DNA from: Butyrivibrio sp.
Lineage (GTDB): Bacteria > Bacillota > Clostridia > Lachnospirales > Lachnospiraceae
NCBI GenBank assembly: GCA_015056655.1
Contig: SVFV01000007.1
Coordinates: forward strand, 62,001-126,000
Direction of reading: 5' to 3'
DNA: 64,000 bases
This document shows positions 34,738 to 63,359 of this stretch, piece by piece. The notes below the pieces were generated by a model that saw only the letters and a program-made list of their open reading frames with translations, searched no databases and was not told the origin of the DNA. Positions within the stretch are counted from its first letter, which is position 1; every line of letters begins with the position of its first letter. The position numbers were made by a program, and so were the translations under genes.

Positions 34738-36192
34738 ATGAAACAGGTTGAATCTATAAAAAGAGTATTTGTATTATTTATAGGACTTGTGGGTCTTGCC
34801 ATGCAGACTGCGGTTTATGCAGTTTTCTGGTTTAAGGTCTACTATCCGATCGTTAACGCACCCAGAATCAGTGCCCAGGGATTTTTGCTTGGTAATGGTC
34901 TTAAGCTGTATTTCCGTGGACATGTACTGGTAATTGCAATTTATTTCTTCATGTTATTGTTCTTTTCGAACACTTACGGTGGCTTGAAAATCGGATATCT
35001 GAAATCCATGGATATCTTTCTTTCACAGATTTTCTCAGTTGCCGTAGTGAACGTTCTGTCTTATTTCCAGATTTCACTTATGAGTAACGGACTGGTTGCT
35101 GCCTATCCGATGATTGAGATTACTGTCATTGAGCTGATACTTGCCTTTTTGTGGGCTGTGGCATCTAACTGGTTATATCGATCAATATTCCCGGCAAGGC
35201 AGATGCTCCTTATAAGTGGGGAGTATCCTGTTGATGACATCTTAAGAAAATTTAATTCAAGAAAAGACAGATATAATATTGTAAAATGCATGAATATCTC
35301 TGAGGGAATTGAGAAGATAGAAGAGGAAGCTCTCCTTAGATATGATGCTGTTGTTATCTGGGATATACCTACAAAGGACAGAAATAATCTTCTTAAGTTT
35401 TTGTATGCGCATTCTATAAGAGTATATCTTATGCCTAAGATCACGGATGTACTTGTAAAGGGTTCAACACAGATGCACCTTTTTGACACACCGGTATTGC
35501 TTTTGAGAGAGTATTACCTCAAGGTGGAAGAGAGGGCTATAAAGAGGCTTATAGATGTTGTTTGCGCTCTTATACTCAGTATATTTTTTTCACCTATTAT
35601 GCTTATTACAGCTATCATCATTAAGCTCTACGATGGTGGCCCTGTCCTTTATAAGCAGATAAGATGCACTGAGAATGAGAGAGAATTTAAGATTATGAAA
35701 TTCAGGAGCATGAGAGTTGATGCTGAGAAGGATGGAGTTGCAAGACTTGCAACCAAAAATGATTCCAGAATCACTCCCATTGGTAAGTTCATCAGAGCAG
35801 TTAGAATCGATGAGCTCCCGCAGCTCTTTAACATACTTAAGGGTGATATGTCCTTCATAGGACCACGCCCTGAGAGACCTGAAATTATTAAGCAGTACAT
35901 GGAGACAATGCCCGAGTTTGCTTTCAGAATGAAGGTTAAGGCAGGACTTGCAGGATATGCTCAGGTTTATGGAAAATACAACACAACACCTTACGATAAG
36001 TTAAAGCTGGATCTTGCATATATTGAGAACTATTCAGTCTGGCTTGACTTTAAGCTTATGCTTTTAACACTCAAGATATTATTTACACCTGATGCTACTG
36101 AAGGTGTTGAGGAAACACAGATCACTGCGATGAAGATAGAAAGTGATGACGACTTCGGAGGAGAAGATGGCAAGGAAACGGAAAAGTTATGA
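34738..36192 (+). CDS. Polyprenyl-phosphate sugar-1-phosphate transferase (initiating enzyme, WbaP/WcaJ type)
   Basis: This 484-residue protein has about four N-terminal membrane segments (residues 10-150), a Rossmann-like middle part, a re-entrant hydrophobic helix (LIDVVCALILSIFFSPIMLI) and the bacterial sugar transferase domain (PF02397) with KIMKFRSMRVDAE, RIDELPQLFNILKGDMSFIGPRPERPE and AGLAGYAQVYGKYNTTP. It should load a hexose- or deoxyhexose-1-phosphate on undecaprenyl phosphate and so start the repeat unit. The following Wzz-like gene overlaps its end by 26 bases. Confidence 0.94.
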   Translation: MKQVESIKRVFVLFIGLVGLAMQTAVYAVFWFKVYYPIVNAPRISAQGFLLGNGLKLYFRGHVLVIAIYFFMLLFFSNTYGGLKIGYLKSMDIFLSQIFSVAVVNVLSYFQISLMSNGLVAAYPMIEITVIELILAFLWAVASNWLYRSIFPARQMLLISGEYPVDDILRKFNSRKDRYNIVKCMNISEGIEKIEEEALLRYDAVVIWDIPTKDRNNLLKFLYAHSIRVYLMPKITDVLVKGSTQMHLFDTPVLLLREYYLKVEERAIKRLIDVVCALILSIFFSPIMLITAIIIKLYDGGPVLYKQIRCTENEREFKIMKFRSMRVDAEKDGVARLATKNDSRITPIGKFIRAVRIDELPQLFNILKGDMSFIGPRPERPEIIKQYMETMPEFAFRMKVKAGLAGYAQVYGKYNTTPYDKLKLDLAYIENYSVWLDFKLMLLTLKILFTPDATEGVEETQITAMKIESDDDFGGEDGKETEKL

Positions 36193-38083: not shown

Positions 38084-39247
38084 ATGCTGGTCTATCTTTT
38101 GCTTACACTTACAGTTCTTCTGATTGCTCTTAACGTAAAGAGCAGACAACAGGAGTGTGTGGCAGGTGTAAGTGGTGATTACAATTACATATACAGAGGT
38201 ATTACTAGAGAAAGACTAAAGAGTAGTGTAGGAATCTTTGCCATATTCGTATTGCTGACAGGAGTATCCTCCATAAGACTCAATGTGGGAAATGACTACA
38301 GCAATTATGTAGAGTTCATGCACAGAGCCTTTAGTGGTGCAATCGTTCCTACTGAACCGGGATTTAATTACCTGACAATACTTATTTATAAGATCTCAGG
38401 CTTTGAGAATTATGTGGCAGTCTTCTTTGTTTTCGCAGCAGCAACAGTTTTCTTTTTCCTTGCTGCAATCAGGAAAAGATCAGAAGACTTCTGGATGTCA
38501 TTTATGATGTTCATGCTGCTTGGTTATTATTTCCAGTCGATCAGTACAGTGAGATGGTACCTTGCACTCTCTATTGCTATTTTTTCAGCATATTATTGCA
38601 TTGAGAGGGACTGGCCAAAGTTCGTACTTCTGGTACTTGTTGGAGCATTGTTTCATAAGTCACTGCTTGTGGTGCTGGTGCTTTATCCCATGGCATGCAT
38701 TAAGTGGAGAAGATGGATGCTTGGCGCACTTGGAATAATGTGTCTTTCAACATTGTTCTTAAAGGACTTTTATTTGCAGGTGGCAATTAAGTTATATCCG
38801 TCCTACGCAGGAACTGAGTACTTAAATACCACAGGACTTAGCAAGGTCAATATCATAAGATGTCTTGCGGTTGCTGCCTTTGGAATTTATGTACTTAGAA
38901 AGGATATTACAAAGGACAGAGAGTTTACCTTTTACTTTTACTGCAATATATTTGCATTTCTCTTGTACACCTTCGGTTCCTTTATTCCGACGGTGTCCAG
39001 AATTGCATATTATCTGACCGTAACACATCTTTTCTATATACCCATGCTTATTAACAGGGTTGATGAAAAAATGTTTATAAGGACAAATATCAGAACTGTG
39101 TTAAAGGTCGTTACAGTAGCTATATGCGTAGTTTACTTTATAGGCTACATGAGAGGCGCAGGAAATGACGGAGTCAGGATATTGCCTTACGAGACAATCT
39201 TCTTCCATGAACTTCCGGCTACACTTTCAGAGAGAGGCTTCGGCTGA
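38084..39247 (+). CDS. EpsG-family polysaccharide polymerase
   Basis: This 387-residue polytopic protein, with about ten membrane segments, matches EpsG (PF14897): RLNVGNDYSNYVEFMHRA, the EPGFNYL motif, STVRWYLALSIAIFSAYYC and GALFHKSLLVVL. EpsG-type proteins are Wzy-like polymerases that join repeat units outside the membrane. Along with the initiating transferase and the Wzz-like protein this outlines a polymerase-dependent route. The ribosome site GAGAGGT is three bases before the ATG, closer than usual. Confidence 0.88.
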   Translation: MLVYLLLTLTVLLIALNVKSRQQECVAGVSGDYNYIYRGITRERLKSSVGIFAIFVLLTGVSSIRLNVGNDYSNYVEFMHRAFSGAIVPTEPGFNYLTILIYKISGFENYVAVFFVFAAATVFFFLAAIRKRSEDFWMSFMMFMLLGYYFQSISTVRWYLALSIAIFSAYYCIERDWPKFVLLVLVGALFHKSLLVVLVLYPMACIKWRRWMLGALGIMCLSTLFLKDFYLQVAIKLYPSYAGTEYLNTTGLSKVNIIRCLAVAAFGIYVLRKDITKDREFTFYFYCNIFAFLLYTFGSFIPTVSRIAYYLTVTHLFYIPMLINRVDEKMFIRTNIRTVLKVVTVAICVVYFIGYMRGAGNDGVRILPYETIFFHELPATLSERGFG

Positions 39248-45680: not shown

Positions 45681-46682
45681 ATGAAATTAGACGGTAAAAC
45701 CTTATTAGTAACTGGAGGCACAGGTTCTTTTGGACACTGCTTTATAGAATATGTGCTCGAGCACTATAATCCGAAGAAGATTATTGTTTACTCAAGAGAT
45801 GAGTTTAAACAGTATACAATGGCCAATGAGAAGGTTTATAAAGAGCACGCAGATCAGATGCGTTTCTTCATTGGTGATGTAAGAGATGGAGCACGTCTTG
45901 AGAGAGCTATGGAGGGTGTTGATTATGTTATCCACGCCGCTGCTCTTAAGCAGGTTCCGGCTTGTGAATACAACCCTGACGAGGCTATCAAGACCAATGT
46001 TAATGGTGCTCAGAACGTAATAAATGCAGCACTTAACACAGGTGTAAAGCGCGTTGTTGCTCTTAGTACAGACAAGGCAGTTAATCCTGTAAACCTTTAC
46101 GGTGCTACAAAGATGGTTTCAGATAAGCTATTTATTGCAGCTAATGCTTATGCCGGCAATAAGGACATTAATTTCTCTATTGTTAGATATGGAAACGTAG
46201 CTGGAAGCAGAGGTTCTATCATTCCTCTCTTCAAGAGTCTTATTGAAAGAGGTGAGAAGGAGCTTCCTATCACTGACTATCGTATGACACGTTTCTGGAT
46301 AAGCCTTCCTGAGGGTGTTGAGCTTGTGCTCAAGGCACTTGACGAGGCTAAGGGTGGTGAGACCTTCATCAGTAAGATCCCTTCATTCACTGTCAAGGAT
46401 CTGGCTGAGGCTATGTGCCCTGGAATCGCTACAACAGAAGTTGGTATTCGTCCGGGTGAGAAGCTCGACGAGGTTATGGTAACTGTTGAGGATGCGCCTT
46501 TCACATACGAGTTTGATAAGCACTTCATCGTTTATCCTCAGGTGACATTCAATGACAGACAGGTTCCTGATCCGAGAGGAAAGAAGGTACCTGAAGGATT
46601 CTACTACAGCTCAGGTAACAATACTGAGTGGATGAGCGTTGCTGATATTCAGGCAAGACTTCATGAGGCAGTAGATCACTAA
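45681..46682 (+). CDS. pseB: UDP-GlcNAc 4,6-dehydratase (5-inverting) PseB
   Basis: This is the first enzyme of CMP-pseudaminic acid synthesis: it dehydrates UDP-GlcNAc at C4-C6 with inversion at C5. The NADP loop is TGGTGSFGH, the active site is STDKAVNPVNLYGATK (Asp, Lys and Tyr of PseB), and GNVAGSRGSIIPLF is diagnostic of the PseB/FlaA1 group. At 333 residues it is of normal length. The pseC gene follows 52 bases later. Confidence 0.96.
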   Translation: MKLDGKTLLVTGGTGSFGHCFIEYVLEHYNPKKIIVYSRDEFKQYTMANEKVYKEHADQMRFFIGDVRDGARLERAMEGVDYVIHAAALKQVPACEYNPDEAIKTNVNGAQNVINAALNTGVKRVVALSTDKAVNPVNLYGATKMVSDKLFIAANAYAGNKDINFSIVRYGNVAGSRGSIIPLFKSLIERGEKELPITDYRMTRFWISLPEGVELVLKALDEAKGGETFISKIPSFTVKDLAEAMCPGIATTEVGIRPGEKLDEVMVTVEDAPFTYEFDKHFIVYPQVTFNDRQVPDPRGKKVPEGFYYSSGNNTEWMSVADIQARLHEAVDH

Positions 46683-46734: not shown

Positions 46735-47949
46735 ATGAGCGATAATAATAATGATAAGAGAATCCCTGCAATTTGCGGGGGTTCGCCCGTTAGAAGCAAA
46801 AAATTATACTATTCTCATCAGGATGTAAATGAGAAGGATATTCAGGCGGTCGTAGATGTACTTAAAAGTGACTACCTGACAACTGGTCCTGCAATCACAG
46901 ATATGGAGGAGAAGCTTTGCAAGGTTACAGGTGCAAAACACGCTGTTGCAATAAGCAATGATACAGCGGCTCTTCATGTTGCTTGTCTGGCAGCAGGCGT
47001 AGGACCTGGTGATGAGGTTATTACAACTCCCATCACTTTTGCAGCAAGTGCTAACTGCGCATTTTATTGTGGCGCAAGACCTGTGTTTGCTGATATCGAT
47101 CCTGAGACATATCAGATCGATCCTGATGATATTGAGAGAAAGATTACATCAAAGACAAAGGCTGTAATCCCTGTGGATTATACAGGACAGACCGGTGCTC
47201 TTGATAGAATAAAAGAAATCTGCAAGAAGCATAACCTTGTAATGATCGAAGATGCTGCTCATTCCATCGGAACTACATATAAAGGAAAGCCCGTTGGAAC
47301 TATAGCTGATATGTCTACCTTCAGTTTTCATGCTGTTAAAACTATAACCGGAGGCGAAGGTGGAGCAATTCTTACAGATGATGATGAGTATTACAAGAAG
47401 CTTCTTCTTTTCCGTACTCATGGAATTACAAGGGACACATCTCTTATGGAGCATGAGATAGATGGCCCCTGGTATTATGAGCAGCTTTGCCTTGCACCTA
47501 ATTACAGACTTACAGATATGCAGGCAGCGCTTATCAGCAGCCAGCTCGACAGACTTGATGAGTTTGTAGCCAGAAGAAAAGAAATCAGAAAGAGATATGA
47601 TGAAGCATTTTCAAAGCTTCCTGAGCTTTTTGTTCAGAAAGAGGATCCGGATTCTGATTCCTGCAGACATTTATATATTCTCAGAATTGTACCAGAGAAG
47701 CTTAAAGTAGGACGCAAGGAGTTCTTCGATGCACTTGGAGCAGAGAACATCATCTGTAACGTTCACTACATTCCGACTTACTACTTCCCTTACTATGAGA
47801 AGCAGGGTTATAAGAAGGGACTTTGCCCTAACGCTGAGAAGCTCTATGATGAGATGATCACTATTCCTCTTTATGCAGCTATGACTGATGAGGACGTTGA
47901 GGATGTTATTGCTGCTGTAGAGAAGCTTGTGGATTACTACAGAGCTTGA
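46735..47949 (+). CDS. pseC: UDP-4-amino-4,6-dideoxy-N-acetyl-L-altrosamine transaminase PseC
   Basis: This PLP-dependent DegT-family enzyme aminates the 4-keto product of PseB using glutamate. It has SNDTAALHVACLAAG, TTPITFAASANC, EDAAHSIG and the Schiff-base Lys in SFHAVKTITGGEGGAIL. The PseC-specific start (YSHQDVNEKDIQAVVDVLKSDYLTTG) and position after pseB settle the call within the DegT family. The 404-residue length is slightly above the 375-390 usual. Confidence 0.95.
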   Translation: MSDNNNDKRIPAICGGSPVRSKKLYYSHQDVNEKDIQAVVDVLKSDYLTTGPAITDMEEKLCKVTGAKHAVAISNDTAALHVACLAAGVGPGDEVITTPITFAASANCAFYCGARPVFADIDPETYQIDPDDIERKITSKTKAVIPVDYTGQTGALDRIKEICKKHNLVMIEDAAHSIGTTYKGKPVGTIADMSTFSFHAVKTITGGEGGAILTDDDEYYKKLLLFRTHGITRDTSLMEHEIDGPWYYEQLCLAPNYRLTDMQAALISSQLDRLDEFVARRKEIRKRYDEAFSKLPELFVQKEDPDSDSCRHLYILRIVPEKLKVGRKEFFDALGAENIICNVHYIPTYYFPYYEKQGYKKGLCPNAEKLYDEMITIPLYAAMTDEDVEDVIAAVEKLVDYYRA

Positions 47950-47991: not shown

Positions 47992-48696
47992 ATGAGTGCT
48001 ATTGCAATAATTACAGCGCGTGGTGGAAGTAAGAGAATACCACGTAAAAATATAAAAGTATTTTGCGGTAAACCGATAATAAATTATTCAATTGAGGCTG
48101 CCCTTCAGTCGGGTATCTTTGATGAAGTAATGGTTTCAACTGATGATGAGGAGATTGCAGAGATAGCAAAGAAGGCAGGAGCAAATGTTCCCTTCTACAG
48201 ATCTGCGGAGACTTCAAGTGACATAGCTACTACAGCTGATGTGCTTTTGGAAGTACTTGATGAGTATGAGAAAATGGGACGCAGCTTCGAGTATGGATGC
48301 TGCATTTATCCCACAGCTCCTTTTGTTACTGCCAGAAAGCTTAAGGAAGCAATGGACGAGCTTATAAAGTCAGGTGCTCAGTCAATTGTTCCCATGCAGG
48401 AGTTTTCATATCCTCCTCAGCGCGGACTTTTCATTGATGAGAATGGACTGGTTAAGATGCTTCATCCTGAGTATGCAACAACAAGAAGTCAGGATCTTCA
48501 GAAGCAGTATCATGAGTGTGGTCAGTTCTACATTTTCAGAAATGACGAGTTCAGAATTCAGAAGGATACCACTATGGAGAAGTCAATTCCGTATATCATA
48601 GACCCTGTTGAATCACAGGATATTGATAATGAGAGCGACTGGCTTCTTGCAGAAATGAAGTACAGATTCCTTACAGAACAGGGATTACTTAAGTAA
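47992..48696 (+). CDS. pseF: Pseudaminic acid cytidylyltransferase PseF
   Basis: This 234-residue enzyme activates pseudaminic acid with CTP to CMP-Pse. It has the NeuA-type motif AIITARGGSKRIPRKNIKVFCGKPII and the acidic DPVESQDIDNESDWLLAEMKY tail of PseF. It is in the usual place among pse genes, before pseI. The NeuA and LegF families are alternatives, but the flanking genes fit Pse. Confidence 0.95.
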   Translation: MSAIAIITARGGSKRIPRKNIKVFCGKPIINYSIEAALQSGIFDEVMVSTDDEEIAEIAKKAGANVPFYRSAETSSDIATTADVLLEVLDEYEKMGRSFEYGCCIYPTAPFVTARKLKEAMDELIKSGAQSIVPMQEFSYPPQRGLFIDENGLVKMLHPEYATTRSQDLQKQYHECGQFYIFRNDEFRIQKDTTMEKSIPYIIDPVESQDIDNESDWLLAEMKYRFLTEQGLLK

Positions 48697-48707
48697 GACG
48701 AGGATAT

Positions 48708-49745
48708 ATGAAATTAGAGAAATGTCTTAAAGAAAACAGAGCATATATGATAGCAGAGATGAGCGCCAACCACGGCGGCTCTCTTGAAAATGCTTTAAAA
48801 ATAGTTGAAGCAGCAGCAAAGGCAGGGGCAGATTGCTTAAAGACTCAGACCTACACTGCTGACACAATTACTATTGATTGTGATGCGGAAGCTTTTAAAA
48901 TTCATGGAGGCTTATGGGATGGATATAATCTCCATGATCTTTACAAGGAAGCCTACACTCCCTGGGAGTGGATGGAGCCCATAAAGAAAAAGTGTGAGGA
49001 ATGCGGAATAGACTTCCTTTCCACACCTTTTGACAAGACTTCTGTGGATTATCTTGAAAATATTGGAGAGGAATTCTACAAGATAGCTTCATTTGAGCTT
49101 GTGGATATTCCGCTTATTAAGTATATAGCAAGGACCGGAAAACCCATCATCATGTCTACCGGTATGGGAAGTGAAGAGGAAATTGAGGAAGCTATAGCAG
49201 CTATCAGATCCGAGGGTAATGATCAGATTATTATTCTTAAGTGCTGTAGCGTTTATCCTACTGTTTCTGCAGATTTAAACCTTAGAACTATTCCTGATAT
49301 GAGGGAGAAATTCAAGGTGCCTGTAGGTCTTTCAGATCACTCAATGGGTGGCACAGCAGCTATTGCTGCAGCAGCACTTGGAGCTGTTGTTATTGAGAAG
49401 CATTTCTGCCTGGACAGAGACATTCCTTCAGCTGATTCAGCATTCTCCATGGAACCTCAGGAGTTTGCAGATATGGTAAAGGGTGTTCATGATGCAGAGC
49501 TTGCTTTGGGTAAGGTTTTCTATGGACCTACAGAGGCAGAGGCTGGAGAATATACCAACCGTAGATCCTTGTTTATAGTTGAGGATGTCGAGGAGGGCGA
49601 GGAGCTCACCGAGACAAATGTCAGAAGTATCAGATCCTACAATATACAGGGTATTAAGCCTAAGTATTACGAAGAAGTACTTGGAAAGAAAGCAAAGAAA
49701 AAGCTAATGCGCGGAACTCCGCTGGAATGGAGCCTATTTGAATAA
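48708..49745 (+). CDS. pseI: Pseudaminic acid synthase PseI
   Basis: This NeuB-family aldolase-like enzyme condenses phosphoenolpyruvate with 2,4-diacetamido-2,4,6-trideoxy-altrose. The TIM barrel has MIAEMSANHGGSLENA, CLKTQTYTADTIT, KIASFELVDIPLI and LSDHSMGGTAAIAA, and the C-terminal SAF domain carries NRRSLFIVEDVEEGEELTETNVRSIR. The SANH and KTQTY forms point to PseI rather than NeuB. It overlaps pseG by 8 bases. Confidence 0.96.
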   Translation: MKLEKCLKENRAYMIAEMSANHGGSLENALKIVEAAAKAGADCLKTQTYTADTITIDCDAEAFKIHGGLWDGYNLHDLYKEAYTPWEWMEPIKKKCEECGIDFLSTPFDKTSVDYLENIGEEFYKIASFELVDIPLIKYIARTGKPIIMSTGMGSEEEIEEAIAAIRSEGNDQIIILKCCSVYPTVSADLNLRTIPDMREKFKVPVGLSDHSMGGTAAIAAAALGAVVIEKHFCLDRDIPSADSAFSMEPQEFADMVKGVHDAELALGKVFYGPTEAEAGEYTNRRSLFIVEDVEEGEELTETNVRSIRSYNIQGIKPKYYEEVLGKKAKKKLMRGTPLEWSLFE

Positions 49746-50921: not shown

Positions 50922-52163
50922 TTGTATATGAAAAAGATTTTTATTTTGGGAGCAAGTGCACTTCAGGTGCCTGCAATCAGAAGAGCGAAGGAAAAGGGAT
51001 TGTATGTGTATGCGCTTGATTACGATCCGCATGCAGTGGGAATTCCTGAAGCAGATGAGTTTTTGCTCATAAGTACAATTGATAAAGAGGCAGTTCTTGA
51101 GGCTGCAAAGAAATATAAGCCGGATTTTGTTGTGACATCAACCAGCGACCTGCCTGTAAGAACGGTTGCGTGGGTTAATGAGCAGCTTGGAAGAGAAGGT
51201 GGAATAGCATACGAGGATGCGATCTGTGCTACAGATAAGGCAGCGATGCGCGTAAGGATGAAGGAATGCGGAGTTCCTATTCCTGATTTTCATGTGGCTG
51301 GCTCAAAGGAAGAGTTCCTTGAAAAGACAAATCTTCTGGGTGATAAATTTGTTTGTAAGCCTGCTGATAATGCAGCAAGCAGAGGTGTGGTTTTAGTTGA
51401 TAAGAATGAACTAAAGGCAGATGGAAAAAATCTTGAAGAAGAGCTCTTAAAGATATATGAGTACACTCACAGCTTTTCCAGAAGCGGAGAGGTTCTTGTA
51501 GAGGAGCTTATGACAGGCCCAGAGGTTAGTGTTGAGTCCATAACTGTGGATGGCGAGCCTCATATAATAACCATCACAGATAAGCTGATAACTAAAGAGC
51601 CATACTTTGTTGAGACTGGACACACTGAGCCATCAAGATTATTCAAGTATCAGCAGGAGGACATCAGACAGGTTGCATTTAAGGCAATAAAAGCTTTGAA
51701 CATGTCCTATGGTTCAAATCATACAGAGATCAAGGTTACTCCGACAGGAGCAAAGCTTGTGGAAATAGCAGCAAGGCTTGGAGGAGATTACATTACTTCC
51801 AGACTTGTTCCGCTTTCAACAGGGGTTGATATGATAGACTGCGACCTCTCAAGTGCTGTTGGAGATAAGGTTAACTACGAGAAAACTCTCGATAAAGGCT
51901 CTGCTATCAGATTTATCTACTTTAACGAGGATGAAGAGAATGAAAGAGAGCATGTAATAAAGGCTATTGATGGCGTTTCGGATGCGCAGAGTGTTCCTGG
52001 TGTTACAGAGGTAGTTCTTTACAAAAATGTGGGGGACACAGCTGGCAGATTAAAGAGCAGTAACGACAGGATAGGACACGTTATTGCCACAGGAAAAGAT
52101 GCTGACGAAGCCGAAGAAAACGCACTTTTGGCGCTTTCAAAGATACATATATTATACGAATAA
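50922..52163 (+). CDS. ATP-grasp ligase of unknown substrate
   Basis: This roughly 413-residue protein has the three parts of biotin-carboxylase-like ATP-grasp enzymes. They are an N-terminal Rossmann-like domain (IFILGASALQVPAIRRAKEKGLYVYALDYDP), a central lid (DKFVCKPADNAASRGVVLVD with EELMTGPEVSVESI) and the metal site NHTEIKVTPTGAKLVEIAARLGGD. Such enzymes join a carboxylate to an amine or similar via acyl phosphate. It lies 14 bases after pseG and before a PLP-type gene. Two starts are possible: TTG at 50922 (GGAG 5 bases away) or ATG at 50928 (11 bases). It may modify a sugar amine with an amino acid, but this is inference. Confidence 0.85.
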   Translation: MYMKKIFILGASALQVPAIRRAKEKGLYVYALDYDPHAVGIPEADEFLLISTIDKEAVLEAAKKYKPDFVVTSTSDLPVRTVAWVNEQLGREGGIAYEDAICATDKAAMRVRMKECGVPIPDFHVAGSKEEFLEKTNLLGDKFVCKPADNAASRGVVLVDKNELKADGKNLEEELLKIYEYTHSFSRSGEVLVEELMTGPEVSVESITVDGEPHIITITDKLITKEPYFVETGHTEPSRLFKYQQEDIRQVAFKAIKALNMSYGSNHTEIKVTPTGAKLVEIAARLGGDYITSRLVPLSTGVDMIDCDLSSAVGDKVNYEKTLDKGSAIRFIYFNEDEENEREHVIKAIDGVSDAQSVPGVTEVVLYKNVGDTAGRLKSSNDRIGHVIATGKDADEAEENALLALSKIHILYE

Positions 52164-52210: not shown

Positions 52211-52225
52211 GAAATGGGGATTGGT

Positions 52226-53419
52226 ATGTACGAGATTGGTAGCGAATTTCATTTTGAGAAAAACAATGTACGCGAGAACCTGATAGAGGTATTTGAGCAT
52301 GCTGCTTCAAAAAGCGGAAGAAATGTAGCTTTTTTAAGATGTGGCAGAGATGCTATTGGCTTTGTGGCTGATGATATTATTGCGAAAATGGAGGATGCAG
52401 GAGATGATAGCCTTGGTAAAAAGGTATTTTTGCCTGCTCTTTCCTGCGATTCTATGGTGAGACCCTTCGAGGTAAGAGGCTTTGATGTGAGCTTCTACAG
52501 ACTTAAGGAGGACCTTACTGTTGATACTGAATATCTTATAAGTGAGATGGGAAAAGTTACTGATAACAGTAAGCTTTCTGTTCTTTTCATGAATTTCTAT
52601 GGAATAGCAGATACTACTGAGGCTTCAAAGGCTGTAAGAGAAAGCTTTGCAAATGCAGCGATCATTGAGGACGTGACACATATTTTACTTGAGCCTGAAA
52701 AATATCTTGAGACGGATAAAGCAGCCTATGTGGATTACCATGTTGGAAGTATCCGCAAGTGGCTTGGAGTTCCGGATGGAGCTCTTGCCATAAGCAAGGA
52801 TGAATTTGTAATGGGCGCACTTACAGGCGAGACAGATTTCTCACTTCTTAGAATGGAAGCCTTAAAGGAAAAGACACAGTATCTTGATAACGGAGATGAG
52901 GAGCTTAAAGTCCATTTCAGAAAGCTTTTATCAGATGCTGAGGATTCCCTTAGCGATGGACTTGATCCTTATCATATGTCTGATGAGAGCGCTGAGTATT
53001 TAAAGAGTATTGATGCTCTTTACATGAGCGAGAAGAGAGCTATGAATTATCATAACCTCTACAGCATGTTGAAGGCTCTTCCAATCTATGGAAAGGCATT
53101 CAGACTTTTGAAGGAAGAGGATTATGAGGAGTTTACTCCCTTTATGCTTCCTATCGTTCTTGATATCGACTTTATGAGAAGAAGCGCTATCACAGAAGAA
53201 GGCAAGACTATCACAAGAGATGGCTTTGAAAAGGTTCTTGCAAGCAAGGGCGTTTACGCTCCTGTGCTTTGGCCTATTTCTGAAGAAGCAGCGAAGACCT
53301 GTCCTGTCTCTGAAAGCTTTGCTGATAAGATGCTGGCATTCTGGATTGATCAAAGATATAACAGATTCGACATGGAGAGAATCTGTGAGGTATTAGACGA
53401 GAGCCTTGCACAGATTTAA
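52226..53419 (+). CDS. Divergent PLP-dependent (aspartate aminotransferase fold) protein
   Basis: This 397-residue protein (start at ATG 52226; track start 52214) resembles DegT-type aminotransferases in outline: FLRCGRDAIGFVADDI as in the substrate-binding start, FLPALSCDSMVRPFEVRGF, VLFMNFYG, IIEDVTH for the PLP-stacking Asp, and YHVGSIRKWLGVPDGAL where the Schiff-base Lys would be RK. The usual SFHxxKxxxxGEGG is not there, so it is not a canonical sugar aminotransferase. It follows the ATP-grasp gene and may act with it. Function is unknown. Confidence 0.65.
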   Translation: MYEIGSEFHFEKNNVRENLIEVFEHAASKSGRNVAFLRCGRDAIGFVADDIIAKMEDAGDDSLGKKVFLPALSCDSMVRPFEVRGFDVSFYRLKEDLTVDTEYLISEMGKVTDNSKLSVLFMNFYGIADTTEASKAVRESFANAAIIEDVTHILLEPEKYLETDKAAYVDYHVGSIRKWLGVPDGALAISKDEFVMGALTGETDFSLLRMEALKEKTQYLDNGDEELKVHFRKLLSDAEDSLSDGLDPYHMSDESAEYLKSIDALYMSEKRAMNYHNLYSMLKALPIYGKAFRLLKEEDYEEFTPFMLPIVLDIDFMRRSAITEEGKTITRDGFEKVLASKGVYAPVLWPISEEAAKTCPVSESFADKMLAFWIDQRYNRFDMERICEVLDESLAQI

Positions 53420-53479: not shown

Positions 53480-54565
53480 ATGAAGATTAGCGTTATAGTT
53501 CCTGTCTACAACATGGCAGGAGAAGATAAATTGAAGCATTGCCTGGACAGCCTTGTGGGGCAGACTCTGAAGGATGGTGAAATTGAGATCATCGCTGTAG
53601 ATGATTGTTCCACTGATAATTCCTTCGAGATCATGCAGAGATATGAAAAAGAATATCCTGAGAGATTTATTGCCATACACAGCCCGGTAAACCATCATCA
53701 GGGCGGTGCAAAGAATATAGGTCTTGGCATTGCAAAGGGCGAGTGGATAGGCTTTATAGATGCAGATGACTGGGTTGTTCCGGATTACTATGAACGCCTT
53801 TTGAAAAAGGCAGAGGAAACCGGTGCGGATATGGTTGGCTGCGATTATTCTTTGGTTGATAGTTATACTTTTGAGCCTGGCCAGATAGTTCATAACAACA
53901 CTCATGAGCAGACAGGAATCATGGATGAAGATAAGTACAGAAAGCTTCTCCTTGATACCGGCAGTCTCGTGGTTAAGATTTACAAAAGATATATTGTTCT
54001 TGGGGATGAGTCTTCAAAGGAAGGCAAATATGGTGCACCTAAGGAAGATGCATTGAGTGCGAAGCTTGATATTTTCCCTGAGGATATTTTCTATGAGGAT
54101 AATGCGGTAAGTAATACCTGGATGCTGAGAGTCAAACACTTTGAGTATATCGAGGAGCCGCTTTACTTCTATTTCCAACATGATACTTCTACGGTTCATA
54201 CTATTTCAAAGAAGAATCTTGAGGACAGGATGACTGCCGGAAGGCAGATTCTGAGGGAAGCTAAGGATAATAACTATCTTGATAAGTACCACCCCGAAAT
54301 AGAATTTATGTACACAGTGCTTTTCTATGTAAACACACTGTTTTCTGCTATGCCGAAAAATCAGCATATAAGCGGATGCTATGGCTTTACCAAAAGGATG
54401 GGCGAGGAAATGAAGGAAGCTTTTCCTGATTTCCAGAATAATAAATATTATGTGGACAGAATACATCCTGAGGAAAAGAAGCTTATTGGGATGCAGATGA
54501 AGTCGCATCTGATGTTTTATGTTTATTACAGGCTTTTATGGTTTTACAGAGGCCTTAGAAAATAG
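53480..54565 (+). CDS. GT2 family glycosyltransferase
   Basis: This 361-residue GT-A enzyme has ISVIVPVYNMAGEDKLKHCLDSLVGQTL, VDDCSTDNSFEIM, NHHQGGAKNIGLGIAKGEWIGFIDADDW and a C-terminal tail of about 150 residues with membrane-associating character (MFYVYYRLLWFYRGL). The ribosome site is poor and the 60-base upstream gap contains GGGGCCC. It lies between the PLP-type gene and the sialyltransferase-like gene. The sugar is unknown. Confidence 0.9.
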   Translation: MKISVIVPVYNMAGEDKLKHCLDSLVGQTLKDGEIEIIAVDDCSTDNSFEIMQRYEKEYPERFIAIHSPVNHHQGGAKNIGLGIAKGEWIGFIDADDWVVPDYYERLLKKAEETGADMVGCDYSLVDSYTFEPGQIVHNNTHEQTGIMDEDKYRKLLLDTGSLVVKIYKRYIVLGDESSKEGKYGAPKEDALSAKLDIFPEDIFYEDNAVSNTWMLRVKHFEYIEEPLYFYFQHDTSTVHTISKKNLEDRMTAGRQILREAKDNNYLDKYHPEIEFMYTVLFYVNTLFSAMPKNQHISGCYGFTKRMGEEMKEAFPDFQNNKYYVDRIHPEEKKLIGMQMKSHLMFYVYYRLLWFYRGLRK

Positions 54566-54611: not shown

Positions 54612-54624
54612 TAAAGGAGATAAC

Positions 54625-55767
54625 GTGCACGAGAGAATTTATGTATGCCACACCTTTTATCATGTGTATGTGGCATGTCTAAAGGAATTTCATATATTAC
54701 ATGGGCTGTCTGCTAAAAAGGACGGCGATTTTGCTTCTTCTAAAGCAGGCGAAGGCAGCAGCGCTGCTGGAAGAGCTACACTTGTGCTTTCAAAGATGAG
54801 TAACAAGTTTGGAAGCATGGTAGAAAGAGCAAGGAATTGCGGACTTTTTGAAGAGGTAATTGAGTATGATGAAAAGGTTGATACCTTTTTCCCTGAGCTT
54901 GCTCCTCTTCGAAAAAATACAGGAAGTCTTCCAAAGAACATGATCAACAGAATCAAGTTCTGCAAGAGATTTGCGCAGCTCCAGGAACAGTACATACCTG
55001 TAGACTTTAAGCAGTACAAGGATATTTATGTTTTCTGCGATTCTGATCCAATAGGCTACTATCTGAACTATAAAAAGATTAGATACCATGCCCTTGAGGA
55101 TGGCCTTAACTGCATCAAATACGGCGATCAGGCACGCTATGACAACAATGGACACTTTAAGTTCAAGGCATGGCTTGCATCAACAGGTCTTATCTTCATC
55201 CAGAACGGCTGGGGCAGATACTGCATAGATATGGAGGTTAATGACATCTCCATTTTGGACTACCCATGTCCTAAGTATATAGAAGTTCCGCGTGAGCCAC
55301 TTGTTGAGGAGCTTACGCAGGCAGATAAGGATCTCATGCTCGAGCTTTTTGTGGAGAACATGGATGAACTTAAGCAGCAGCTTGAAAAGGGCAAGGATAA
55401 GCCCAGAGTTTTGATTTTATCTGAACCCCTCTGCGATCTTGAGACCAGAGAACGCCTTTTCAGAGACCTTGTAAATGAGTATGGAACCGTAAATGGCAAG
55501 GAAGCTATCGTAATGATAAAGCAGCATCCCAGAGACTACCTTGATTATAAAACCAAGTTCTCTGATGTTATTCTTCTTGCAGGCACCTTCCCAATGGAGA
55601 TGCTCAACTTTATTGATGGTCTTAAATTTGATAGACTAGTATCGGTATATACAGTTGTTGACTCAATCAAATTCGTTGATGAGAAGCTTTTCCTCGGTGA
55701 TGACTTTATGGATAAGTATGAAGCGCCTGAGATTCATCGACTTAATGAACAGATAATAGATAATTAG
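54625..55767 (+). CDS. GT-B sialyltransferase-like protein (GT52/POLYST type), candidate nonulosonic acid transferase
   Basis: This 380-residue protein has RYHALEDGLNCIKYG, matching the D/E-D/E-G motif, and IVMIKQHPRDYLDY, matching the HP motif, of bacterial GT-B sialyltransferases; a late VSVYTVVDSIKF may be the S(S/T)-type motif. The N-terminus ERIYVCHTFYHVYVACLKEF resembles that of GT52 enzymes. I chose the GTG at 54625, with AAAGGAG at 5 bases, over the track start at 54586. Its place a few genes after pseG, with CMP-Pse as an available donor, suggests a pseudaminyl transferase. The family call rests on motifs only. Confidence 0.65.
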   Translation: MHERIYVCHTFYHVYVACLKEFHILHGLSAKKDGDFASSKAGEGSSAAGRATLVLSKMSNKFGSMVERARNCGLFEEVIEYDEKVDTFFPELAPLRKNTGSLPKNMINRIKFCKRFAQLQEQYIPVDFKQYKDIYVFCDSDPIGYYLNYKKIRYHALEDGLNCIKYGDQARYDNNGHFKFKAWLASTGLIFIQNGWGRYCIDMEVNDISILDYPCPKYIEVPREPLVEELTQADKDLMLELFVENMDELKQQLEKGKDKPRVLILSEPLCDLETRERLFRDLVNEYGTVNGKEAIVMIKQHPRDYLDYKTKFSDVILLAGTFPMEMLNFIDGLKFDRLVSVYTVVDSIKFVDEKLFLGDDFMDKYEAPEIHRLNEQIIDN

Positions 55768-55774
55768 GAGAAAC

Positions 55775-57526
55775 ATGAAAAAGATTTATCAGAAAATGAT
55801 GGTGCTTTTGGATGACCGTCAGAAAAAACAGATGGTGCTCATTGTGTTCATGATGCTCATTGGAGGTATATTGGAGACTTTGGGAATTGCTCTTCTTTTA
55901 CCTGCGATGCAGACAGTATTGGAACCAGACAAGCTTTCTGAAAGCAAGTATCTCTCTGCTGCATATAACTTTCTTGGGTGCACAAGCGTCAAGCAGTTCG
56001 CAATAATAATATTTGCATCAATAATAGTAGTTTTTGTAGTAAAGAACATTGTTTTGTTTTTTATAAATGTAGTTCAGCTTAGGTTTGTTTACACCAATCA
56101 GTTTGCTACTTCAAGACGCATGATGATCAACTTCATGCAAAGACCTTATGAGTATTATTTAAATGCAGATACGTCAGTTATCCAGAGAAACATAACTTCT
56201 GATGTAAACAATATGTACGGACTTATCTTAAGCTGCCTTCAGCTTATTTCAGAGATGATAGTTTTTACATGCCTTGTTGTCATGCTTCTTCTGGTCAATC
56301 CTATAATGACCATTTTTATCGCAACCTTACTGGTTTCAGTACTTTTGATAATAAAGTATATTATTAAGCCCATTATGGTTAAGGCAGGACAGGATAACCA
56401 GGATTACTACAGCGGACTATTCAAATGGATAGAAGAGTCTGTTATGGGAATCAAGGAAATCAAGATTGCAAACAAGGAAAACTATTTCATAAACGGATAT
56501 GCGGACTGTGGAGCCGGATATGTAAATGCCGTGCAGAAATATAACCTCTACAATTCTACGCCAAGACTTCTCATCGAGACTATAAGCGTTGCAGGAATGG
56601 TTGGCTATATGCTGGTCGTTATCATCAGAGGCGAGGCTCTTAGCGATATGGTCGCTTTGGTAGGTGTGCTTGGCGGAGCTGCCACAAGACTTCTTCCAAG
56701 TGCCAACAGAATCAACAATTATCTTACTTCTATAGCATATTTTGAGCCTTTCTTTATGAATGTAAGTGATAATCTTCAGAGTGAGATAAATGATTCAGGA
56801 ATCTCTTATAACGCTGAGGATTATAAGAAAATGGGAGATGTTGAAAAGCTTCCTGTACATAAGACAATTGAGCTTAAGAATATAACATATAAATATCCAA
56901 ATTCAGAGAGCTATGTTTTAAAGGGCGCAGATATGACAATACCTGTTGGCAAATCAATCGGTATCGTGGGTACATCTGGTGCTGGTAAGACCACAATTGT
57001 TGATATCATGCTTGGACTTCTGAAGACAGAGACAGGTGAAATCCTGGCTGATGGCGTGGAGGTCAGAGAGCATTATCCACAGTGGCTTAAGAATATCGGA
57101 TATATTCCGCAGACTATTTTCATGCTGGATTCAACCATTAGAAAGAACGTAGCATTTGGAATACCGGATGAAGGTATTGATGATGACAAGGTTTGGGCTG
57201 CTCTTAAAGAGGCTCAGCTTGATGAATATGTAAGATCTCTTCCTGACGGACTTGATACCACAATTGGTGAGCGTGGAATCAGACTTTCAGGTGGTCAGAG
57301 ACAGAGAATCGGAATTGCCAGAGCGTTGTTTGAGGATCCTGAAGTTCTCGTTCTTGATGAGGCTACAAGTGCTCTTGATAACGAGACTGAGGCAGCTATC
57401 ATGGATTCAATCAACAGGCTTCATGGAAGAAAGACACTTATCATAATCGCACACAGACTTCAGACTATCGAGAAGTGCGATATGGTATACAGAGTAAGTG
57501 GTCAGAAGGCTACATTACAAAGATAA
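55775..57526 (+). CDS. ABC exporter/flippase, PglK-like
   Basis: This 583-residue half-transporter has six membrane segments (residues 20-310) fused to an ATPase domain with GTSGAGKTT, YIPQTIFMLDSTIRKNVAFG, RLSGGQRQRIGIARAL and VLVLDEATSALD. The sequence style (MLLGGILETLGIALLLPAMQ-type first helix, NITSDVNNMYG, GIKEIKIANKENYF) fits PglK, which flips lipid-linked oligosaccharides. No Wzx flippase is seen in the window, so this may export the repeat unit. It starts 7 bases after the preceding gene. Confidence 0.9.
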   Translation: MKKIYQKMMVLLDDRQKKQMVLIVFMMLIGGILETLGIALLLPAMQTVLEPDKLSESKYLSAAYNFLGCTSVKQFAIIIFASIIVVFVVKNIVLFFINVVQLRFVYTNQFATSRRMMINFMQRPYEYYLNADTSVIQRNITSDVNNMYGLILSCLQLISEMIVFTCLVVMLLLVNPIMTIFIATLLVSVLLIIKYIIKPIMVKAGQDNQDYYSGLFKWIEESVMGIKEIKIANKENYFINGYADCGAGYVNAVQKYNLYNSTPRLLIETISVAGMVGYMLVVIIRGEALSDMVALVGVLGGAATRLLPSANRINNYLTSIAYFEPFFMNVSDNLQSEINDSGISYNAEDYKKMGDVEKLPVHKTIELKNITYKYPNSESYVLKGADMTIPVGKSIGIVGTSGAGKTTIVDIMLGLLKTETGEILADGVEVREHYPQWLKNIGYIPQTIFMLDSTIRKNVAFGIPDEGIDDDKVWAALKEAQLDEYVRSLPDGLDTTIGERGIRLSGGQRQRIGIARALFEDPEVLVLDEATSALDNETEAAIMDSINRLHGRKTLIIIAHRLQTIEKCDMVYRVSGQKATLQR

Positions 57527-59800: not shown

Positions 59801-59859
59801 ATGATATCCGACCGGACAAAGTCAGATAATAACTATAGTTATTAGAGGTGGACTATTAT

Positions 59860-60996
59860 ATGCGAATAAATTTTAATGTGCCTCCTTTCACAGGAAAGGA
59901 AATGGACTACATAAAAATCTGTGTAGAGAATCAGAAGATTTGTGGTGATGGCGAATTCACTAAAAAAGATAATGAGTGGTTTGAGAAAAAGACAGGAGCA
60001 AATAAGTGCCTTCTTACAACCTCATGCACTCACGCTACAGAGATGGCGGCTATTCTTGCAGGAATCAAAGAAGGGGATGAAGTTATAATGCCTTCCTACA
60101 CCTTTGTTTCCACTGCGAATGCGTTTGTACTTAGAGGTGCAAAGGTAGTATTTGTGGATATCCGTCCAGACACCATGAACATAGATGAAAATCTAATTGA
60201 GGATGCTATCACACCAAAGACAAGGGCAATCGTACCTATGCACTACGCAGGTGTTGGCTGCGAGATGGACACCATCATGGATATAGCAAAGAGGCATAAT
60301 CTTTTTGTTGTAGAGGATGCAGCCCAGGGTGTTATGTCTACCTACAAGGGTAAGGCACTCGGAGCTATCGGAGATTTTGGTAACTACAGCTTCCATGAGA
60401 CAAAGAATTACAGCATGGGCGAAGGTGGAGCACTTATCCTCAGGGATGAGACCTATGTCAATGATGCGATTATCATCAGAGAGAAGGGTACCAACAGAAC
60501 ACTTTACCAGCTTGGTAAGGTTGATAAATACACATGGCTTCAGCCTGGTTCCTCATATCTTCCCAGTGATATGAATGCTGCTTATCTTTATGCACAGCTT
60601 CAGATGGCAGATGAGATAAATGAGGACAGATTAAAGAGCTACAACAAGTATGTTGAAGCTTTCAAACCTCTTGAGGAGGCAGGGCTTATCGAGCTTCCTT
60701 ATGTTCCGGAGGAATGTGTGCACAATGCTCACATGTTTTATATTAAGTGTAAGGATCAGGAAGAGAGAGCAGGACTTATAAATTACTTAAAGAGCAATGA
60801 TATCCTCCCGGCTTCACATTATGTTCCGTTACACACATCTACTGCAGGACTTAAGTACAGCAGGTTCCATGGAGAGGATAGATATACAACAAAGGAAAGC
60901 TTAAGACTTTTAAGACTTCCTATGTATTACAAGCTTTCAGATGAGGATCTTAATGAAGTAGTTCTTCGAGTAAAAGAGTACTATAGGGCGGTATGA
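59860..60996 (+). CDS. rffA: dTDP-4-amino-4,6-dideoxy-galactose transaminase (RffA/WecE)
   Basis: This DegT-family enzyme makes dTDP-Fuc4N from dTDP-4-keto-6-deoxy-glucose. It aligns by eye closely to E. coli WecE: INFNVPPFTGKEMDYI, KICGDGEFTKK, YTFVSTANAFVLRGAKVVFVDIRPDTMNID, HYAGVGCEMDTIM, EDAAQGVMSTYKGKALG, and SFHETKNYSMGEGGAL with the PLP Lys. The ATG at 59860 has AGAGGTG 9 bases upstream; the track start lies inside that site. At 378 residues it fits WecE (376). Its stop overlaps the next start by ATGA. Confidence 0.95.
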   Translation: MRINFNVPPFTGKEMDYIKICVENQKICGDGEFTKKDNEWFEKKTGANKCLLTTSCTHATEMAAILAGIKEGDEVIMPSYTFVSTANAFVLRGAKVVFVDIRPDTMNIDENLIEDAITPKTRAIVPMHYAGVGCEMDTIMDIAKRHNLFVVEDAAQGVMSTYKGKALGAIGDFGNYSFHETKNYSMGEGGALILRDETYVNDAIIIREKGTNRTLYQLGKVDKYTWLQPGSSYLPSDMNAAYLYAQLQMADEINEDRLKSYNKYVEAFKPLEEAGLIELPYVPEECVHNAHMFYIKCKDQEERAGLINYLKSNDILPASHYVPLHTSTAGLKYSRFHGEDRYTTKESLRLLRLPMYYKLSDEDLNEVVLRVKEYYRAV

Positions 60997-62840: not shown

Positions 62841-63359
62841 ATGGGAATTGTCAGAGGGCAGAAGGTTTTCTTAAGAGAGATTACCCTTGATGACACCAAA
62901 AATGTGGTGAAATGGAGAAATAACCCCAGGGTTAGAAATAACTTCATCTACAGAGAGATATTTACTGATGCCACTCATAATGAGTGGATGAAAACAAAGG
63001 TTGCTTCAGGTGAGGTTTGTCAGATGATAATCTGCGAGGCGGAAAGCGAAAGGCCGGTTGGAAGTGTATACCTCAGGGATATAGATAATGATAAAAAGGA
63101 AGCTGAATACGGAATTTTTATCGGCGAGGATGATGCTACCTCCAAGGGCTATGGCAACGAAGCAGCGATTCTAATGTGCGATTACGCAAGAGATGAGCTT
63201 GGACTGAAGAGACTGATACTCAGGGCTTTTTGCGATAATGAGCCTGCACTTAAGAGCTATGAGCATGCAGGATTTAAGAAAACAGAGGACCTTCCAGAGG
63301 TTAAATGCTCTGATGGTGAAGTTAAGGATATGATTCTTATGGAAAAGGTTTTATGGTAA
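62841..63359 (+). CDS. GNAT N-acetyltransferase (PseH-like or WecD-like)
   Basis: This 172-residue acetyltransferase has VFLREITLDDTKNVVKWRNNPRVRNNF, whose WRN signature is common in PseH and RimJ-type enzymes, the acetyl-CoA region ATSKGYGNEAAILMCDYARDEL, and NEPALKSYEHAGFKKTED. A strong AGGGAGG precedes the ATG. It could be PseH, the missing step between PseC and PseG, or it could acetylate dTDP-Fuc4N made by RffA just upstream, as WecD does. Position favours the latter and sequence style the former. Confidence 0.88.
   Translation: MGIVRGQKVFLREITLDDTKNVVKWRNNPRVRNNFIYREIFTDATHNEWMKTKVASGEVCQMIICEAESERPVGSVYLRDIDNDKKEAEYGIFIGEDDATSKGYGNEAAILMCDYARDELGLKRLILRAFCDNEPALKSYEHAGFKKTEDLPEVKCSDGEVKDMILMEKVLW

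Follow-up and report, generated by a model that had tools for sequence, protein, structure and literature searches.

The window, by which we mean the whole 64-kb stretch of Butyrivibrio DNA that was analysed, contains a polysaccharide locus in which an initiating transferase, an EpsG-like polymerase, several GT1 and GT2 genes and a set of genes for pseudaminic acid (Pse) synthesis lie upstream of a predicted GT52-like pseudaminyl transferase (Table 1). The PglK-like ABC gene starts 7 bases downstream of the transferase gene, and a search of the 64-kb window against Rfam gave no match. Direct reading of the transferase ORF found it intact. Its start was placed at the GTG at 54625 because an AAAGGAG sequence lies four to five bases upstream, and the start residue is common to the homologues. 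In-frame stops that seemed to be present in some homologues proved to be natural stop codons that had been taken into the match.

Table 1. Features of the window discussed in the text; bit scores are followed by the respective cut-offs.
Feature	Position	Strand	Evidence or remark
Initiating polyprenyl glycosylphosphotransferase	34738..36192	+	PF02397; TIGR03025 328.6 > 295.55
EpsG-family putative polymerase	38084..39247	+	PF14897 E=2.7e-51
PseB, UDP-GlcNAc 4,6-dehydratase (inverting)	45681..46682	+	TIGR03589 512.8 bits > 407.75
PseC, aminotransferase	46735..47949	+	TIGR03588 469.1 bits > 423.5
PseF, pseudaminic acid cytidylyltransferase (makes CMP donor)	47992..48696	+	TIGR03584 289.2 bits > 205.7
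PseI, pseudaminic acid synthase	48708..49745	+	TIGR03586 455.1 bits > 340.25; NeuB_NnaB 295.5 < 399.65
PseG, UDP-sugar hydrolase, 389 aa	49738..50907	+	TIGR03590 153.9 bits, cut-off 153.55
ATP-grasp ligase with L-amino-acid-ligase C-terminal domain; possible Pse tailoring	50922..52163	+	PF13535, PF18603
PLP-dependent fold-type-I enzyme; possible Pse tailoring	52214..53419	+	Without Pfam match; AF2 pLDDT 89.5
GT2 glycosyltransferase directly upstream of transferase	53480..54565	+	PF00535 E=1.5e-33; neighbour kept in relatives
Shine-Dalgarno AAAGGAG	54614..54620	+	Fixes GTG start at 54625; read directly
Predicted GT52-like pseudaminyl transferase	54625..55767	+	380 aa + stop; EDG 158-160, KQHP 299-302
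PglK-like ABC flippase	55775..57526	+	Best NCBIfam match NF050066 PglK 345.9 bits, below cut-off 1000; conserved neighbour
WecE-like dTDP-4-amino-sugar transaminase, separate sugar branch	59848..60996	+	NF008687 606 bits > 375
GNAT acetyltransferase, sole PseH candidate in cluster	62841..63359	+	TIGR03585 PseH 73.4 < 93.1

The six Pse pathway proteins were scored against NCBIfam equivalog cut-offs (Table 1). An earlier note on this DNA had described the cluster as able to make CMP-Pse, a description that stood for 5 of the 6 steps (PseB, PseC, PseF, PseI and PseG) and fell short for PseH, the only candidate for which scored below the cut-off. PseG, which is longer than the 280-position TIGR03590 model, was just over its own. 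A PseH-like GNAT accompanies a WecE-like gene in 40/40 related loci, suggesting a separate dTDP-amino-sugar branch, and the GNAT in the window may serve that branch instead of acting as PseH.

Family, motifs and fold of the transferase

The transferase had been proposed to be of the GT52/POLYST type. The GT52 part of the proposal was upheld, as the protein matched Pfam family PF07922 (Glyco_transf_52) with E=2.3e-13 and a score of 50.5 bits, where the cut-off is 26.1, and the same family matched 53 of 56 aligned relatives (59-92% identity) at E<=1e-3. The POLYST part stayed below threshold for the window protein, whose 17.6 bits against PF07388 were under the cut-off of 23.3; 25 of the 56 relatives matched POLYST at E<=1e-3. 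A match to the Maf domain PF01973 (MptE-like) was not found in the transferase by Pfam at E<=0.1. The Neisseria lipooligosaccharide sialyltransferase is the type of the GT52 bacterial sialyltransferases. These enzymes share with the Butyrivibrio transferase the Pfam match, the D/E-D/E-G and K-x-H-P motifs in that order, and the GT-B fold; they differ in being tied to the NeuB/NeuA sialic acid pathway, whereas the Butyrivibrio transferase is tied to PseI/PseF.

Both motifs to which the earlier note had drawn attention, LEDG and KQHP, were confirmed in the expected order, L157 standing before the EDG. Of shuffled copies of the transferase, 42% contained D/E-D/E-G, 4% contained K/R-x-H-P and 0.9% had the two in the proper order, so that taken by themselves the motifs carry modest weight. 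They become convincing through their conservation: E158, D159, G160, K299, H301 and P302 were identical in 56/56 aligned relatives, and nine further relatives (about 44-58% identity) also possessed EDG and KPHPRD. The residues of HT(F/Y)YH and V-x-T were likewise invariant among the aligned relatives.

An AlphaFold2 model computed on the alignment (pLDDT 90.7, pTM 0.89) displayed a GT-B fold, and its ten best PDB matches were all bacterial sialyltransferases of GT80 and GT38 (PDB 2zwi, 4r83, 2ihk, 2z4t; 5wcn), with E from 1e-8 to 2e-6, 9-13% identity and TM-scores of only about 0.5. We take the GT80 entries to be enzymes of Photobacterium and Pasteurella, and the GT38 entry (5wcn) to be a bacterial polysialyltransferase. 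Unrelated GT-B enzymes came after them, from E about 5e-6, and the margin of the sialyltransferases over these enzymes is real, albeit not huge. The GT80 and GT38 enzymes provided the best folds for the transferase but differ from it by their CMP-Neu5Ac donor and by the lack of a sequence match. The 50 fold matches listed included no recognisable solved GT52 structure, and PDB sequence searches with the transferase and with the 56-row profile as queries likewise returned no relevant relative and no solved GT52 protein. The viral fold library gave nothing specific. Together, the motifs and the modelled fold point to a probable CMP site.

Pairing of the transferase with PseI

The closest relatives of the transferase are from Butyrivibrio (92% identity). 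The gene was present in 37/37 genomes of the genus examined, that of the window included, with a NeuB-family gene within about 13.5 kb on the same contig in 34 of the 37 and on another contig in three fragmented assemblies. Among 294 genomes of the order, a full-length homologue was detected in 36 and a PseI over the curated score in 60. For these counts homologues were detected with alignment A2, since PF07922 misses true homologues on whole genomes (e.g. G001, G015, G030). All 36 homologue-bearing genomes had PseI and 0 were without it (Fisher p=1.7e-30), a value to be read with the genomes not independent, as a single family supplied every full-length homologue of the order sample; at the genus level, co-occurrence was 12/12 with PseI vs 18/132 (p=8e-10). 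Homologues residing mainly in genomes without nonulosonate synthesis, which would have spoken against the proposed function, were therefore sought and not found. The homologue was also absent from all 32 order genomes whose NeuB-type synthases are solely non-PseI, and complete genomes with the transferase subfamily and no PseI were not found in the sampled order.

All 38 PseI-family proteins scanned from related loci (38/38) matched the PseI model, and their best NeuB_NnaB E-value, 1.1e-91, was far short of that model's cut-off. A PseI identity of only about 50% had raised the suspicion that distant loci encode Neu or Leg synthases; by NCBIfam these proved to be PseI/PseF.

Acceptor and donor

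Since its gene belongs to a polysaccharide operon and is followed by one for a PglK-like flippase, the transferase likelier acts on a surface glycan than on flagellin. We questioned whether it might nevertheless be a pseudaminyl transferase whose acceptor is flagellin or another protein, given that flagella are the best-known site of Pse and that the window's strain carries a Maf gene among its flagellin genes (PseD-like domain match of 99 bits). We regard this as unlikely, in that the flagellin and Maf genes lie on another contig (C18), while the transferase gene stands between a GT2 gene and an ABC flippase gene. Moreover, the transferase and long Maf proteins (PF01973 at E<=1e-20, a threshold of our own) mostly exclude each other in the 60 PseI genomes: 28 had the transferase alone, 20 long Maf alone, 8 both and 4 neither, a pattern of mutual replacement with p=3e-6, not corrected for kinship. 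The strain studied here is one that has both, and the likeliest arrangement would be a division of labour in which Maf serves flagellin and the transferase serves polysaccharide. The flagellar region (L175:6052-15909) comprises three flagellin genes with the Maf/PseD-like gene between them, one flagellin being 858 aa long with a repetitive middle.

The donor could instead be a different nucleotide sugar from the cluster (a UDP-sugar or one of dTDP-Fuc4N type) or a second, Kdn-like CMP-nonulosonate of the same genome. The latter has a candidate source on contig C18, where a second nonulosonate locus (L174:10307-15484) encodes a short NeuB, a CMP-transferase joined in one protein to a HAD domain like that of Kdn-9-phosphatase, an aminotransferase of the DegT type and an ATP-grasp protein whose C-terminal part is HAD-like; judging from its genes, the genome makes a second CMP-sugar. 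The WecE-like branch offers another source within the cluster, and PF07922 overall is not confined to nonulosonate makers, as 3 of 5 other genomes of the phylum with a PF07922 match had just weak NeuB-like matches, a true NeuB being absent. In contrast to PF07922 as a whole, the transferase subfamily was never seen without PseI. In the complete same-genus genomes G023 and G030, which keep the transferase, PseI is the sole NeuB-family enzyme and PseF the sole PF02348 enzyme, so any CMP-nonulosonate used by the transferase there is the product of PseI/PseF. Three others (G032, G034, G013) likewise have one NeuB-family and one PF02348 enzyme each, the separate scoring of the NeuB-family enzyme as PseI covering G023 and G030. 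Likewise, L057, L061, L069 and L109 keep PseI/PseF and the transferase with no WecE-like gene within the fetched flank. A donor other than a product of the Pse pathway is thus improbable in our view.

PseI lay within about 20 kb of the transferase on the same contig in 28/36 genomes (median 3.3 kb) and on another contig in 8/36. Pairwise distances among the transferases ran only partly parallel to those among the PseI proteins (r=0.67), and comparisons with locus L031 revealed clear swaps of PseI lineage, as a transferase identity of 65% goes with a PseI identity of 76%, and one of 72% with 49%; the pairing thus survives exchange of the PseI lineage. That the pairing reflects linkage alone, with an ordinary glycosyltransferase riding along in a polysaccharide cassette that is shared and moves laterally, might be read from the neighbourhood conserved across many loci and from the confinement of homologues to one family of the sampled order, but is very unlikely in light of the separate contigs, the only partly parallel distances, and the persistence of the pair while the rest of the cassette varies in order and contents.

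Taken together, the GT52 match, the fold, the invariant motifs and the exclusive co-occurrence with PseI lend good support to the candidate pseudaminyl transferase as a prediction. We assign a probability of roughly 80% to the reading that the transferase is a cytoplasmic GT-B, GT52-like enzyme that uses CMP-Pse, or an N-acyl derivative of it, to transfer Pse onto a lipid-linked surface-polysaccharide intermediate; the inference is strong for the donor and moderate for the acceptor. PseB, PseC, an acetyltransferase, PseG, PseI and PseF would make CMP-Pse. By analogy with characterised sialyltransferases, the nucleotide would bind in the C-terminal domain, with KQHP (through H301) and S340/T343 holding the phosphate, and D159 of EDG would activate the acceptor hydroxyl as CMP leaves. 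The product of the adjoining PglK-like ABC gene would then flip the Pse-bearing lipid-linked oligosaccharide.

Known transferases and possible tailoring of Pse

Pse transferases of known function are few, being KpsS1/GT118 and Maf in the accessible literature; preparative synthesis of CMP-Pse5Ac7Ac by enzymes is dealt with in PMC7910423. KpsS1, an Acinetobacter capsule pseudaminyltransferase, is described as retaining and as founding GT118 (Walklett 2024, cited in PMC12887879); it has the role predicted for the Butyrivibrio enzyme, that of a surface-polysaccharide Pse transferase, but by that description is set apart as a Gram-negative member of a separate retaining family. The Maf/PseD flagellin transferases have the predicted use of CMP-Pse in common with it and differ by family (PF01973) and by their flagellin acceptor; a recent survey (PMC13317340) regards the Pse of Clostridium as a flagellar sugar that depends on Maf. 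Group B Streptococcus CpsK and S. suis Cps2N are Gram-positive capsule sialyltransferases, and these two species are called the sole Gram-positives with a sialylated capsule (PMC5891629). CpsK and Cps2N are thus Gram-positive nonulosonate capsule transferases whose sugar is sialic acid, not Pse. Accordingly, of the earlier view that such an enzyme would be notable in a Firmicute, the pairing with Pse holds up, while a sialyltransferase-like enzyme as such has precedent. In the open-access literature, to which the search extended, we found neither a characterised GT52 pseudaminyltransferase nor any Pse transferase reported for Butyrivibrio or Lachnospiraceae, an absence that is weak evidence. 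A Pse-linked Gram-positive GT52-like subfamily was not found described in the searchable literature, although GT52-like transferases themselves are known.

The ATP-grasp and PLP genes stand between PseG and the GT2 gene, inside the Pse operon. A matching ATP-grasp was present in 40/57 PseI-bearing related loci, and the best fold matches of the AF2 model of the PLP enzyme were NifS/IscS and the ArnB/DesI/PseC aminotransferases. The PLP enzyme and PseG form one ORF of 719-849 aa in L079, L096, L102, L089, L107 and L101. PseF ORFs of 579-677 aa occur in 19 related loci, among which L046 was scanned; at L046:4843-6771, PseF forms a fusion with a PLP decarboxylase belonging to the N-citrylornithine/diaminopimelate decarboxylase group, with an ATP-grasp gene adjoining. 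Loci of the B. proteoclasticus type have PseF fused to a PLP decarboxylase. The fusion and its ATP-grasp neighbour hint at a tailoring of Pse derived from amino acids, and the ATP-grasp and PLP enzymes of the window suggest a Pse derivative as donor, such that the transferase may use a modified CMP-Pse. More tentatively, and with the balance still somewhat against it, a Pse-specific GT52-like branch in Lachnospiraceae might place tailored Pse (amino-acylated by an ATP-grasp ligase, with a PseF-fused decarboxylase in some strains) on surface polysaccharide, as an undescribed class of Gram-positive surface nonulosonate.

The Pse-linked transferase points to a group of Pse transferase candidates in Lachnospiraceae of gut and rumen. 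A GT-B subfamily that tracks PseI in these bacteria supplies many such candidates and a possible tool for installing Pse. It also gives reason to examine common commensals for surface pseudaminic acid, which could bear on sialic-acid mimicry, on the binding of phages and on recognition by the immune system.
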